From Actinomycetospora endophytica (lineage in GTDB: Bacteria > Actinomycetota > Actinomycetes > Mycobacteriales > Pseudonocardiaceae): a stretch of 64,000 nt of DNA. The notes under the pieces were generated by a model. That model searched no databases. It was given only the letters and a program-made list of their open reading frames with translations, and had not been told where the DNA came from. Where the stretch lies: assembly GCF_021026375.1 (NCBI RefSeq), contig NZ_JAJNDB010000001.1, forward strand, positions 682,001 through 746,000. Reading direction: 5' to 3'. The number at the start of each line of letters is the position of its first letter. Position 1 is the stretch's first letter. Shown here one piece after another: positions 57,141-60,670 of this stretch. The translations under genes and the position numbers were made by a program.

Positions 57141-59666
57141 CTACAGCTTCTGCATCGGCACGCCGCCGATGAGCATCAGACGCACCGTCCCGGCCGACCC
57201 GAAGTCGATGGTCGCCGTCGCCTTCGACCCGACGCCGTCGACGACCGTCACCAGGCCGAGCCCGTACTTGTCGTGACTGACGCGGTCCCCTACCTCGAGG
57301 TGCAGGGTCGGCGCGTTCGAGCCCGACGAGCGCATCGGCGACGGCCGGGACGCGGCGCCCGTGAGGTCGCGGCCCCAGCTACGGCCCGAGCCGAAGCTGG
57401 TCCGCGCGCTGGGGGCCGAGCGCTCGGGACCGCTGCGCCGCCAGTCGACGACGTCGTCGGGCAGCTCGTCGAGGAACCGTGACGGCGGGTTGGCCTGCGG
57501 TTGGCCGAACGCCGAGCGCATCAGCGCCCGGGACACGTAGAGCCGCTGCTGCGCGCGGGTGATCCCGACGTAGGCGAGCCGGCGCTCCTCGGAGAGCTCC
57601 GTGGGGTCGGCCAGCGCCCGCTGGTGCGGGAACACGCCGTCCTCCCAGCCGGTGAGGAACACGACCGGGAACTCGAGGCCCTTCGCGGTGTGCAGCGTCA
57701 TGAGCGTGACGACGCCGTCGCCGCCGTCGGGGATCGAGTCGGCGTCGGCCACCAGCGACACCCGCTCCAGGAACGCCTCGAGCGAGCCCGGCTCGGGCAG
57801 CCCGTCGACGGCCGGCACCACGCCGGCGGGCACCTCGGCCGCGCCGTCGGCCTGGGCCTCCTCCGCGACCGCCGCGGCGGCCCGGGCGTCCCCGACGAAC
57901 TCCCGCGCGACGCTCACCAACTCGGTCAGGTTCTCCAGGCGCGACTGCTCCTGCGGGTCCTCGGAGTTCTCGAGCTCGGCGCGGTAGCCGGTCTTGTCGA
58001 GCACCGCGTCGAGGGTGTCGGCGACCTCCTCGCCGCTCGCGACCCCCTCGGCCAGCGCGTCGAGCATCTCCACGAACTCGGCGATGCTGCGCTGCGAGCG
58101 GGTGGCCAGGCCGTGCACCTCGCCCGCGGCGGCCCGGCGCAGGGCGGCCGCGAAGGTGACGTGCTCGCGCTCCGCGTGGTCGGCCACCACCGACTCCGCG
58201 CGGTCCCCGATGCCGCGCTTGGGCACGTTGAGGATGCGCCGCAGTGAGACGGTGTCCTCGGGGTTGGACAGCACCTTGAGGTAGGCCATCGCGTCGCGGA
58301 CCTCGCGGCGCTCGTAGAACCGGACCCCGCCGACGATCTTGTACGGCATCCCGAGGCGGACGAACACGTCCTCGAAGACCCGGGACTGGGCGTTGGTCCG
58401 GTAGAAGACGGCCACCTCGCCGAAGCGGACCTCGCCGCCGTCGACGAGCCGGTCGATCTCCGCGGCGACGAAGGCGGCCTCGTCGTGCTCGTTGTCGGCG
58501 ACGTAGCCGACGACCTTCTCGCCGTCGCCGGAGTCGGTCCACAGGCGCTTGTCGCGGCGGTCGGAGTTGCGGGCGATCACCCCGTTCGCGGCGGTGAGGA
58601 TCCGCTGGCTGGAGCGGTAGTTCTGCTCCAGCAGGATGGTGCGGGCCTCGGGGTAGTCCCGCTCGAACTCGACGATGTTGCGGATCGTGGCGCCGCGGAA
58701 CGCGTAGATCGACTGGTCGGCGTCGCCGACCACGCACAGCTCGGCCGGCGGGGTCGACCCGTCGTCGGAACCCGACGACAGCGCCCGCACCAGCATGTAC
58801 TGGGCGTGGTTGGTGTCCTGGTACTCGTCGACGAGCACGTGCCGGAAGCGGCGCCGGTAGTGCTCGGCGACGTCGGGGAACCGGGTCAGCAGGTCGACCG
58901 TGCGGGAGATGAGGTCGTCGAAGTCCAGCGAGTTCGAGGACTGCAGCCGCTGCTGGTAGGCCGCGTACACCTCGGCGCAGCGGCGCTCGTAGTCGGTCCC
59001 CGCCGCCTCGGCCGCCGTGATCGGGTCGGTCAGCTCGTTCTTCCACGACGAGATCTGGCCGAGCAGGCCGCGGGGCGGGTAGCGCTTCGGGTCGAGGTCG
59101 AGCTGCTTGGTGATCGTGGCGACGAGCCGCCGGGAGTCGTCCGCGTCGTAGATCGAGAAGGTGCTCGACAGGTCCAGGTGCTTGTACTCGCGGCGCAGGA
59201 TCCGCACGCACATGGAATGGAAGGTCGACACCCACATCGCGTTCGCCCGGCGCCCGACGAGCGCCGCTACCCGCTCCCGCATCTCGGCGGCGGCCTTGTT
59301 GGTGAACGTGATGGCCAGGATCTGCCCGGGGTGCGCGCCGTGGGCGAGCTGCCAGGCGATGCGGTGGGTGAGCACCCGGGTCTTGCCCGACCCGGCGCCC
59401 GCGACGATGAGCAGCGGCGACCCGGAGTGCACGACGGCCTCGCGCTGCTGGGGGTTCATCCCCTCGAGCAGCGACTCCGCCTGCTGCTCGCGGCGGCGAT
59501 CCGGCCGCGGGCGGGCCTCGTCCTCCCGCGACGCCCCCGCGGGGGCCTCCTCGGCACCGGTGCGGCGCAGCGCGGTGGTTCCCGCGGCGCCCGCGAGCCG
59601 TGCCGCCAGCCCGGCCGCCGCGCTGGGCCGGGACGCCCGGGCCGACCCGGTGTCAGTGCTACTCAT
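57141..59666 (-). CDS. uvrD1: ATP-dependent DNA helicase UvrD1/PcrA
   Basis: This 841-aa superfamily 1 helicase has an unusual Ala/Arg-rich N-terminal extension of about 65 residues, then motif Q/I (MNPQQREAV, GAGSGKT at 90-96), II (VDEYQDTN), III (GDADQSIYAFRGA), IV (EQNYRSSQRI), V (TLHTAKGLEF) and VI (EERRLAYVGITRA). The C-terminal Tudor-like module (LEVGDRVSHDKYGLGLVTVV) is the RNA polymerase contact of PcrA/UvrD. It acts in nucleotide excision repair. Rv0949 is the positional equivalent. It starts at ATG 59666, divergent from the chorismate mutase leader. Confidence 0.96.
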   Translation of the reverse strand: MSSTDTGSARASRPSAAAGLAARLAGAAGTTALRRTGAEEAPAGASREDEARPRPDRRREQQAESLLEGMNPQQREAVVHSGSPLLIVAGAGSGKTRVLTHRIAWQLAHGAHPGQILAITFTNKAAAEMRERVAALVGRRANAMWVSTFHSMCVRILRREYKHLDLSSTFSIYDADDSRRLVATITKQLDLDPKRYPPRGLLGQISSWKNELTDPITAAEAAGTDYERRCAEVYAAYQQRLQSSNSLDFDDLISRTVDLLTRFPDVAEHYRRRFRHVLVDEYQDTNHAQYMLVRALSSGSDDGSTPPAELCVVGDADQSIYAFRGATIRNIVEFERDYPEARTILLEQNYRSSQRILTAANGVIARNSDRRDKRLWTDSGDGEKVVGYVADNEHDEAAFVAAEIDRLVDGGEVRFGEVAVFYRTNAQSRVFEDVFVRLGMPYKIVGGVRFYERREVRDAMAYLKVLSNPEDTVSLRRILNVPKRGIGDRAESVVADHAEREHVTFAAALRRAAAGEVHGLATRSQRSIAEFVEMLDALAEGVASGEEVADTLDAVLDKTGYRAELENSEDPQEQSRLENLTELVSVAREFVGDARAAAAVAEEAQADGAAEVPAGVVPAVDGLPEPGSLEAFLERVSLVADADSIPDGGDGVVTLMTLHTAKGLEFPVVFLTGWEDGVFPHQRALADPTELSEERRLAYVGITRAQQRLYVSRALMRSAFGQPQANPPSRFLDELPDDVVDWRRSGPERSAPSARTSFGSGRSWGRDLTGAASRPSPMRSSGSNAPTLHLEVGDRVSHDKYGLGLVTVVDGVGSKATATIDFGSAGTVRLMLIGGVPMQKL

Positions 59667-59710
59667 CGCCTGGTCACGCTACCCGCCACCCCCGACGCTC
59701 CGGGGCCTGT

Positions 59711-59728
59711 CCGGACCACGTGGTCCGG
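59711..59728. promoter_or_regulatory. 18-bp perfect palindrome between uvrD1 and the leader peptide
   Basis: CCGGACCACGTGGTCCGG is a perfect 9+9 palindrome, 45 bases from the uvrD1 start and 55 from the leader start, in the only gap that can hold both promoters. It is a candidate operator for an unidentified regulator. Confidence 0.45.
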
Positions 59729-59769
59729 GAACGCTCCGTCGGGTCGTGGCGTGGGGAGCCGTGCCGGAC

Positions 59770-59775
59770 TACGCT
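59770..59775 (+). promoter_or_regulatory. -10 element of the chorismate mutase leader transcript
   Basis: TACGCT fits TANNNT and ends 7 bases before the leader GTG at 59783, so the transcript probably begins at that GTG (leaderless). No clear -35 is seen. Confidence 0.5.
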
Positions 59776-59782
59776 GCCGTCC

Positions 59783-59848
59783 GTGCACGCGCCGCGGCGA
59801 TTTTTCTACGGGTACCGGATCCCGGTGCCCGTGGTCCGCCGCGACTGA
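59783..59848 (+). CDS. 21-aa Phe/Tyr-rich leader peptide upstream of chorismate mutase
   Basis: The short frame reads MHAPRRFFYGYRIPVPVVRRD and ends at TGA 59846-59848, 93 bases before the chorismate mutase start. Four of five consecutive codons (59801-59815: TTT TTC TAC GGG TAC) call for Phe or Tyr, the end products of the pathway, as in aromatic amino-acid attenuation leaders. The Tyr-Gly-Tyr codons lie in the left arm of an 11-bp hairpin (59808-59818 with 59822-59832, loop ATC), which a stalled ribosome would melt. The GTG sits 7 bases after a TANNNT box, suggesting leaderless translation. Function is inferred; the peptide itself is unlikely to have another role. Confidence 0.65.
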   Translation: MHAPRRFFYGYRIPVPVVRRD

Positions 59849-59864
59849 GTCGCTGCCCACCACC

Positions 59865-59931
59865 CGCCCCGGAGTCCGAGGACCCCGGGGCGTTCTCGTG
59901 CCGGGGTCCGGACGGCTCCGACCCCTCGGAG
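59865..59931 (+). promoter_or_regulatory. Mutually exclusive hairpins before chorismate mutase (candidate attenuator)
   Basis: Hairpin 1: CGCCCCGG 59865-59872 with 59885-59892, followed by TTCTCGT. Hairpin 2: 59874-59888 with 59901-59913, 13 bp with a 2-nt bulge (core GGACCCCGG/CCGGGGTCC); it shares bases with hairpin 1. Hairpin 3: CTCCGA 59916-59921 with TCGGAG 59926-59931, burying the GGAGG ribosome binding site (59928-59932). Alternative 4: GGGGTC 59903-59908 with GACCCC 59920-59925, which needs hairpin 2 open and would free the ribosome binding site. This is read as a translational or transcriptional attenuator. Confidence 0.6.
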
Positions 59932-59941
59932 GACCACCGCC

Positions 59942-60289
59942 GTGACCGACAGCCCGACCTCGACCGACACGACGACCGACCCCGCCGCCCCGGAGAGCGC
60001 CCCCGGGCCCGGCGGCGCCCCGGCCGACCTCACTCCCGCCACCGCGGACGAGATCCCGAATCTGCGGGTCGAGATCGACGCCATCGACGCCGAGATCCTG
60101 CGCCTCGTCAAGCGGCGCACCGAGATCTCCCAGCGCGTCGGCCTCGCCCGGATGAACGCCGGCGGACCGCGGATCGTCTACAACCGCGAGATGCAGGTCC
60201 TCGCCCGGTTCCGGGACCTCGGTGCCGAGGGTCGCGAGCTCGCGATGCTCCTGCTGCGCCTCGGCCGGGGGAAGCTCGGCAGTCGCTGA
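59942..60289 (+). CDS. Chorismate mutase (AroQ-delta type)
   Basis: This 115-aa all-helical mutase has a disordered Thr/Pro/Ala N-terminus and the AroQ core: NLRVEIDAIDAEILRLVKRRTEISQRVG, RIVYNREMQVLARF, and the C-terminal RLGRGKLG that in the M. tuberculosis enzyme (Rv0948c) is needed for activation by DAHP synthase. It converts chorismate to prephenate, the branch point to Phe and Tyr. The GTG start has GGAGG at 9-nt spacing, buried in a hairpin. A leader peptide rich in Phe and Tyr precedes it, so end-product control of expression is predicted. Confidence 0.93.
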   Translation: MTDSPTSTDTTTDPAAPESAPGPGGAPADLTPATADEIPNLRVEIDAIDAEILRLVKRRTEISQRVGLARMNAGGPRIVYNREMQVLARFRDLGAEGRELAMLLLRLGRGKLGSR

Positions 60290-60346: not shown

Positions 60347-60670
60347 ATGGGAACGGTCATCGACCTCATCGCGACCATCGTCGCGATCCTCGGCCTGCTC
60401 GGCGCGGTCGGTTACGGCGGCTACCTGCTGATGCTGCAGTCGGTCGCGAACAAGCGCCCCGGCGCGTCACATCTCGTCGCTGACGCGCGCAAGCGCCTGC
60501 CGGCGGCGGGTGGGCTCACGCTCGGCGCCCTCGTCGCGCTGCTGCTGACGAGCGGCGGCATCGCGCCCGACATTATCGGTCTCCTCCTGGGTGGCGGTAT
60601 CGGACTGGTCTCCGTCAACCAGTTGCAGGCCGCTCGGCGCCGCCTCTCGAACCCCGGGTCGTCGGTCTGA
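60347..60670 (+). CDS. Small two- or three-TM membrane protein of unknown function
   Basis: This 107-aa protein has an N-terminal hydrophobic segment (IDLIATIVAILGLLGAVGYGGYLLML), a short basic loop (NKRPGASHLVADARKRLP), and a second hydrophobic hairpin (LTLGALVALLLTSGGIAPDIIGLLLGGGIGLV) with a basic C-terminus. No family is recognised. ATG 60347 is the first start in a clean frame with coding-like base use. It follows chorismate mutase by 57 bases and may share its transcript. Confidence 0.7.
   Translation: MGTVIDLIATIVAILGLLGAVGYGGYLLMLQSVANKRPGASHLVADARKRLPAAGGLTLGALVALLLTSGGIAPDIIGLLLGGGIGLVSVNQLQAARRRLSNPGSSV

Follow-up and report, generated by a model that had tools for sequence, protein, structure and literature searches.

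The chorismate mutase locus

The window, that is, the whole stretch of 64,000 nucleotides analysed from the Actinomycetospora endophytica genome, contains a gene for a chorismate mutase (CM) of the AroQ type. The CM product was compared to NCBIfam and exceeds the cut-offs of both NF005894 (115.6 bits, cut-off 73) and TIGR01808 (94.8 bits, cut-off 52.15). CM makes a precursor of phenylalanine and tyrosine. The gene is flanked on its 5' side by a divergent helicase gene and on its 3' side by a 107-residue frame (60347-60670) without NCBIfam or Pfam match. In the region between the divergent genes, a short frame containing Phe-Phe-Tyr-Gly-Tyr, already noticed in the preliminary description, ends 93 nt 5' of the CM gene. 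The segments of the corresponding RNA that can pair with each other, within this frame and downstream of it, are listed in Table 1.

Table 1. Features of the chorismate mutase leader region (positions in the window)
Feature	Position	Strand	Remarks
pcrA-like helicase gene	57141-59666	-	divergent; neighbour only
-10-like hexamer TACGCT	59770-59775	+	7 nt 5' of leader GTG; predicted transcription start at or beside 59783
Leader-peptide frame, leaderless-looking	59783-59848	+	GTG to TGA, 21 codons; translation VHAPRRFFYGYRIPVPVVRRD, then stop
Control codons TTT TTC TAC	59801-59809	+	Phe7, Phe8, Tyr9; codons conserved; stalls here are predicted to free the antiterminator segment
Protector hairpin, inside frame	59809-59831	+	CGGGTACCGG (59809-59818) pairs with CCGGTGCCCG (59822-59831)
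Antiterminator segment GGATCCCGG, inside frame	59817-59825	+	pairs with 59869-59877
Terminator-like hairpin	59865-59892	+	arms GCCCCGGAGTCC and GGACCCCGGGGC (59866-59877 / 59880-59891)
Antiterminator partner CCGGAGTCC	59869-59877	+	also part of the terminator left arm
Short, weak U-containing tail GTTCTCGTG	59892-59900	+	after the terminator-like hairpin
Segment CCGGGGTCC	59901-59909	+	able to pair with terminator right arm 59880-59888 after read-through
Shine-Dalgarno hairpin	59916-59932	+	hairpin 59916-59931, GGAGG at 59928-59932; proposed in the preliminary description
Chorismate mutase gene (CM), AroQ type	59942-60289	+	NF005894 / TIGR01808

A leaderless start of the frame is plausible because the promoter-like hexamer stands at a fitting distance from its GTG. 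Among 117 leaders retrieved from various genomes by their Tyr-Gly motif, [TC]ANNNT is found 6-7 nt 5' of an in-frame ATG or GTG in 108 cases, versus 17 of the 1396 other ATG or GTG codons of the same regions, a count which somewhat favours the leaders as several starts are possible per leader and a single one per control position. The leaderless start, although predicted, is well supported. No T-box or other catalogued RNA element was recognized: neither the window nor five related loci gave an Rfam 15 covariance-model match above its gathering score, and positions 59700-60000 gave chance-level matches with E-values of 1.5 and 3.

Distribution of the leader upstream of chorismate mutase genes

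The preliminary description had proposed a Phe/Tyr leader-peptide attenuator in front of CM, to be checked by the conservation of the Phe/Tyr codons and the covariation of the stems in Pseudonocardiaceae. The sensor and the target withstood this comparison: the leader is found before CM in 87 of the 87 Pseudonocardiaceae loci examined, and three helices covary as described in the next section. CM is present in 17 of 18 Actinomycetospora genomes and is preceded by the leader in all 17. Fifteen of these leaders were retrieved by the Tyr-Gly motif and two, where His replaces Tyr, were recognized by eye (FAHGY in L143, on the same contig as L006, and FSHGY in L147, on the same contig as L002). In a family-wide sample, CM scores over the cut-off in 198 of 200 genomes, ten of them Actinomycetospora, and the leader accompanies 70/70 of the loci from other Pseudonocardiaceae examined among the best-scoring CM places listed (30 + 40).

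Beyond this family, the same order includes three other families with the leader (f4, 3/5 loci; f15, 6/6; f16, 3/3). The 36 loci of family f8 are divided, with a leader in 20 of the 21 loci of the Mycobacterium-like genus g53 and in none of the 15 loci of other genera. A set of 54 loci from named organisms includes 34 carriers (L141-L174), of which 31 were retrieved by motif and three (L143, L147 and L160) by eye; Mycolicibacterium palauense (L172) and Nakamurella lactea (L161) are examples. In the remaining 20, mostly from other phyla, no such leader was seen, and L179 and L186 display an unlike frame matching the motif loosely. Within family f8, the genus g98, which has small genomes and may be Corynebacterium, showed no such leader before CM in three loci, one of which has an unlike short frame.

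A number of side observations were made during this survey. Short frames with aromatic codons and unlike the present one precede CM in L053, L068, L072 and L073, from other f8 genera (for instance LAPQFYGWQTDVHVM in L068), and are possibly independent leaders. Some Mycobacterium-like leaders keep the frame while the terminator is lost, as in L060 and L080, which have no terminator left arm, or altered, as in L069, which lacks a matching right arm and was left out of the 98-leader set and of later counts; in L078 no leader was seen. These losses have the appearance of a decay of the switch. Three Actinomycetospora loci (L018, L019 and L020) have a second CM-like gene of 37-40% identity about 16 kb away on the opposite strand. 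The CM match of L033 and L048 (genus g35) contains an in-frame TGA. Finally, L168 (CAJCJE010000173.1) is a contig recorded as Candidatus Melainabacteria whose CM and leader are of the Pseudonocardiaceae type; it is probably mislabelled or a mixed bin.

Covariation of three RNA helices

The helices were studied on an alignment of 84 leaders, drawn from a set of 98 with little redundancy, using 500 shuffles as control in which relatedness is ignored. Hairpin arms were anchored by pattern, as selecting the strongest hairpin automatically yielded a downstream alternative for most Actinomycetospora loci and some loci outside this genus. In this alignment, the antiterminator helix (columns 23-31 with 90-99) displays 91.9% of paired cells and 24 cells changed on both sides, with a covariation score of 0.158 versus 0.094 in the shuffles. 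The corresponding values are 92.3%, 49 cells and 0.171 versus 0.095 for the terminator helix, and 89.4%, 51 cells and 0.147 versus 0.060 for the protector helix. None of the 500 shuffles, relatedness being ignored, was as high for any of the three helices in percentage of paired cells, double-changed cells or covariation score, and sliding the helices by 1-3 columns left at most 67% of the cells paired. When the count is instead made of column pairs in which both sides have changed, shuffles are as high in 6/500 cases for the terminator, 78/500 for the antiterminator and 54/500 for the protector, so that the last two helices are not clearly above the shuffles by this measure.

Individual positions illustrate the nature of these changes. 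Across 36 Pseudonocardiaceae genera, the protector pair 16:33 is A-U in 20, C-G in 8, U-G in 5 and U-A in 2, with unpaired types (U-U, U-C or A-A) in a few genera. RNA pairing thus largely determines the residue following Tyr-Gly. As for the antiterminator, 13 of the 14 Mycobacterium-like rows have G-C or G-U instead of C-G at the pair 28:93, and three of the four f15 rows have G-C instead of C-G at 26:95; the compensatory changes of this helix are family-level and amount to few independent events. The DNA of the frame is itself kept codon by codon, third positions included, typically as CGA TTT TTC TAC GGG NNC CGG ACT CCG GCT CCC GTG.

The arrangement of these elements is that of an attenuator. 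The terminator hairpin and its U-tail are located between the frame and the gene, and the protector hairpin overlaps the control region. The antiterminator excludes the terminator and is predicted to become available when the ribosome stalls on the control codons; once the right arm is present, the terminator is favoured. Both the tail and the antiterminator are weaker in Actinomycetospora, the tail being poor in U in this genus and T-rich in some other families. After the U-tail, a C/G-rich segment reading CGGGGTC or similar is seen in most of the 17 congeners and could pair with the terminator right arm after read-through.

Control codons and stall geometry

The short frame holds codons for the products of the pathway that it would regulate, its translation being predicted. 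In the 117 leaders, the first control codon is Phe without exception and is written TTT in 116; the second is Phe or Tyr in 100. Phe is otherwise encoded by TTC, with 57 TTC and no TTT in six frames of the window and 33 TTC and no TTT in the CM genes of the leader set. Decoding of TTT presumably relies on wobble and is slow.

The consequences of a stall were modelled by folding the nascent RNA of 114 leaders up to the terminator left arm. A stalled ribosome was taken to cover 12 nt beginning with its A site, and the antiterminator was considered formed with at least 5 expected pairs. In this model, stalling at control codon 1 or 2 lets the antiterminator form in 102/114 leaders. The figure is 89/114 for control codon 3 (the Tyr codon), 0/114 for codon 5, just after Tyr-Gly, and 31/114 without ribosome. 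The geometry of the stall thus singles out the conserved Phe-Phe-Tyr. The sensor of the preliminary description, Phe-Phe-Tyr-Gly-Tyr, is accordingly narrowed: Phe7, Phe8 and Tyr9 are workable, while a stall at Tyr11 would block the switch, which leaves that residue free to vary. It is indeed variable among the 117 leaders (Y 48, T 22, N 19, P 9, I 8, C 4, H 4, R 3).

The minimum-energy fold of 59783-59900 contains the protector and the hairpin 59865-59892. When the terminator right arm is included and the ribosome is placed at control codon 1 or 2, the mean number of expected antiterminator pairs is 0.0 in Actinomycetospora, 2.2-2.7 in other Pseudonocardiaceae and 0.0-0.4 elsewhere; the window leader with a stall at Phe7 folds at -46.6 with the terminator. 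Because the terminator is preferred in the presence of its right arm even when the ribosome is stalled, the decision to read through would have to be kinetic. The antiterminator is weakest in the genus of the window: the pair 27:94 is a mismatch (C-A or A-A) in 10 of 10 Actinomycetospora rows, and the duplex is weaker there (-14.5 versus -18.8 kcal/mol).

Related leaders in other genomes

A covariance model built from the leaders was used to search the genome of the window, 296 genomes of the class and 198 genomes chosen phylum-wide. Its own genome gave one strong match, the window locus itself (E 4e-20), and seven weaker ones, two of which match that locus in reverse orientation. L197, the one inspected among the five others, is a tRNA-Pro gene and was dismissed as a candidate second copy. 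Matches at E <=0.01 were obtained in 88 of the class genomes, some of them false, and at E 1e-4 in 13 of the 198 phylum-wide genomes. Besides L197, false matches are L240, L250, L251, L270, located inside a 3-deoxy-D-arabino-heptulosonate 7-phosphate (DAHP) synthase gene, and L271, which precedes neither CM nor DAHP synthase.

Family f33, probably Streptomycetaceae, provided ten matches (E 9e-11 to 2e-9), all before CM, with leaders such as MLTHPTFLFTYGNRPTGCHGRAA, ended by a stop codon. TTT ACC TAT GGC is present in 10/10 of them, and their CM genes contain 10 TAC, no TAT and no Phe codon. Twenty further matches comprise four before CM (L232, L233, L234 and L239), 13 before a class I DAHP synthase and three before neither. 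The identity of the synthase was confirmed with NF006421, over its cut-off in seven of the 13 genes (the seven tested). The related leaders before class I DAHP synthase (L235-L238, L241-L249 and L272) belong to families f31, f43, f52 and f66.

Trp accompanies Phe and Tyr in 11 of the 13 DAHP synthase leaders (FWFWY, WSFWY, LSFWY, FWRFY) and is missing from the core of the other two (STYFY, RFFSY). Since the related DAHP synthase leaders mostly carry Trp too, codon content follows the branch of the pathway. Their cores contain TTT in 13/13 and TAT in 12/13 cases, these codons amounting to 2/71 and 1/68 in the corresponding genes. The f66 locus L272 (MSRSFGFWFFYGGRRPA, then stop, before DAHP synthase) employs TTC and TAC. 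The element was also sought before the class II DAHP synthase of Actinomycetospora (17 loci) and the prephenate dehydratase of the window genome, and none was found in these 18 loci (best E 2.6).

A swap test was performed on duplex energies (kcal/mol) between the frame segment and own or foreign terminator left arms of 12 nt, taking 11 of the 13 DAHP synthase leaders and leaving out f4. Own arms are best in five of eight classes: the non-Actinomycetospora Pseudonocardiaceae (own -18.4, best other -15.4, the near-identical Actinomycetospora arms giving -19.0), f15 (-18.4 versus -16.0), f16 (-14.8 versus -14.2) and two DAHP synthase classes (-18.0 versus -15.6 and -18.9 versus -17.6). They are not best in Actinomycetospora (-14.4, versus up to -16.4 elsewhere), in the Mycobacterium-like set (-13.2 versus -14.4) and in f33 (-15.3 versus -16.3), nor in f4 in an earlier run with 14-nt arms (-12.1 versus -15.2). 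The test therefore supports co-evolution of the two segments in five of the eight classes, with three against.

Proposed mechanism and alternative explanations

The element is most probably a ribosome-mediated transcription attenuator of the classical trp/pheA layout, through which CM expression depends on charged tRNA-Phe and tRNA-Tyr. This interpretation is based on conservation, covariation, codon choice and the position of the control codons; translation of the leader, termination at the hairpin and the response to Phe and Tyr are predictions from these. Transcription would begin at the leader GTG, where a ribosome would start at once without a Shine-Dalgarno site. When Phe-tRNA or Tyr-tRNA is scarce, the ribosome would halt at TTT TTC TAC, cover the 5' arm of the protector and leave 59817-59825 free. 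This free segment would capture the emerging left arm 59869-59877, the terminator would be blocked and the polymerase would read into CM. When both tRNAs are plentiful, the ribosome would reach the stop codon, or leave and let the protector close; the left arm would then be free, hairpin 59865-59892 would form and transcription would stop.

This scheme departs from that of the preliminary description, in which a stall allows hairpin 1 to form and a pairing of 59903-59908 with 59920-59925 exposes the Shine-Dalgarno site. The hairpins on which it was built are all found in the window sequence, namely two strong, mutually exclusive ones (59866-59877 / 59880-59891 and 59880-59888 / 59901-59909) and the Shine-Dalgarno hairpin. 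However, hairpin 1 seemingly corresponds to 59865-59892, a conserved terminator-like element whose formation is prevented by stalling in our model, and the antiterminator partner 59817-59825, inside the frame, had been missed. A translational attenuator, where the stall rearranges the RNA and opens the Shine-Dalgarno hairpin so that control would not act on transcription, or not on transcription alone, is improbable. It would agree with the weak U-tail and with the minimum-energy fold of 59783-59941, made of the protector, hairpin 59880-59909 and the Shine-Dalgarno hairpin 59916-59931 with the terminator absent, a fold which may represent the state after read-through. In all 12 congeners where the Shine-Dalgarno site could be placed (of 15 loci), folding also predicts that it is mostly paired, although its partner varies, and mycobacterial cysteine genes are described as being under translation attenuation (PMC13236596). 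The terminator, protector and antiterminator are nevertheless common to several families, while the Shine-Dalgarno hairpin (CTCCG..CGGAG or longer) is present in 5 of 17 congeners (L001, L003, L010, L143 and L147) and the releasing pair (GGGGTC..GACCCC) in 3 of 17. This hairpin was rejected as the main switch on account of its presence in only those five congeners. The tail following the terminator hairpin is, moreover, T-rich in some relatives, as in GTCTCTTTTG.

Arrest by the nascent peptide R-F-x-Y-G-x-R-T-P-A/V-P-V, which would itself stall the ribosome upon a signal, is very unlikely, even though the motif reaches well past Phe/Tyr and includes a Pro-X-Pro element. Frame-shifted relatives lose R-T-P-A-P-V and terminate as FFYGPGLRRP (L039), FFYGPGLRRPWSA (L091) or FFYGYRIRCP (L110 and L111). 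They all keep the RNA pairing segment, one base shorter in L110 and L111, with antiterminator duplexes of -19.4 in L039 and -12.8 in L110. The tail R-T-P-A-P-V thus looks like the shadow of an RNA pairing, and peptide arrest was rejected on these grounds: it is not the peptide rather than the RNA that is conserved. The residue after Tyr-Gly likewise covaries with the downstream protector base (A-U, U-G, C-G, U-A), and two other families have different tails, GTGSPAAVGRA and GHRDPVSVTAG. The least probable explanation, a promoter or operator of CM or of the divergent helicase gene conserved as DNA only, with a short frame arising by chance, would suit a region located between divergent genes and provided with a promoter-like hexamer, but is largely refuted by covariation, as what is conserved is a reading frame together with RNA helices whose changes compensate. 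In addition, the same element precedes CM in f33, and other families have relatives of it ahead of DAHP synthase.

With regard to the origin of the transcription attenuator, we lean towards a broader view. The window element may well be one branch of a phylum-level family of actinobacterial aromatic attenuators, re-coded to suit the branch of the pathway, with Phe/Tyr codons before CM and Phe/Trp/Tyr codons before DAHP synthase. Codons that are almost forbidden (TTT, in some families also TAT) would serve as sensors and render the ribosome unusually sensitive, and the antiterminator would lie in the frame, so that RNA pairing dictates the tail of the peptide.

Comparison with known systems and significance

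The attenuators of Escherichia coli pheA (pheL) and trp (trpL) rely on protector, antiterminator and terminator helices and, like the leader described here, on leader-peptide codons for the product of the pathway. The likeness considered here is one of layout: the window leader differs by its leaderless-looking start, the joint use of Phe and Tyr, an antiterminator segment inside the coding frame, a near-unused TTT as first control codon and a monofunctional AroQ-type mutase as target. E. coli pheA is described as encoding a chorismate mutase-prephenate dehydratase (PMC11802643). Among actinobacteria, the aroR leader of Corynebacterium glutamicum (Phe-Tyr-Phe) is an aromatic leader like that of the window, as far as the published descriptions allow comparison, but precedes aroF, a DAHP synthase gene, instead of CM; it is reported to respond to Phe limitation and not to Tyr (PMC11802643, PMC4046766). 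The ilvB1 attenuator of Mycobacterium tuberculosis is described as having a regulatory frame, an intrinsic terminator and an antiterminator in a high-GC actinobacterium, and differs in responding to branched-chain amino acids (LVVI codons) rather than Phe/Tyr (PMC13236596). In Streptomyces lividans, eight mostly leaderless leaders before amino-acid genes are listed (two leuL, two trpL, ilvL, alaL, metL and thrL), and that list includes no Phe/Tyr leader (PMC8079986); the words chorismate and phenylalanine are absent from the main text of this article. The word chorismate is also absent from the main texts of PMC4633059, PMC9094748, PMC2965389 and PMC4833913. No description of a CM attenuator was found in the open-licence literature searched, and an earlier one may exist elsewhere.

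According to a survey published in 2005, no RNA regulatory structure was conserved ahead of phenylalanine/tyrosine operons in Actinobacteria (PMC1262725), whereas the present leader occurs in 87/87 of the Pseudonocardiaceae loci examined and has evident relatives in other families. Similar switches thus appear to recur in other actinobacteria. Our results suggest a tuning of chorismate mutase, the branch point towards Phe and Tyr, in a group that includes antibiotic producers. The leader would offer a clean test of how attenuation is sharpened by rare codons where genomes are rich in GC and translation is leaderless, and may constitute a concrete target for the improvement of antibiotic producers.
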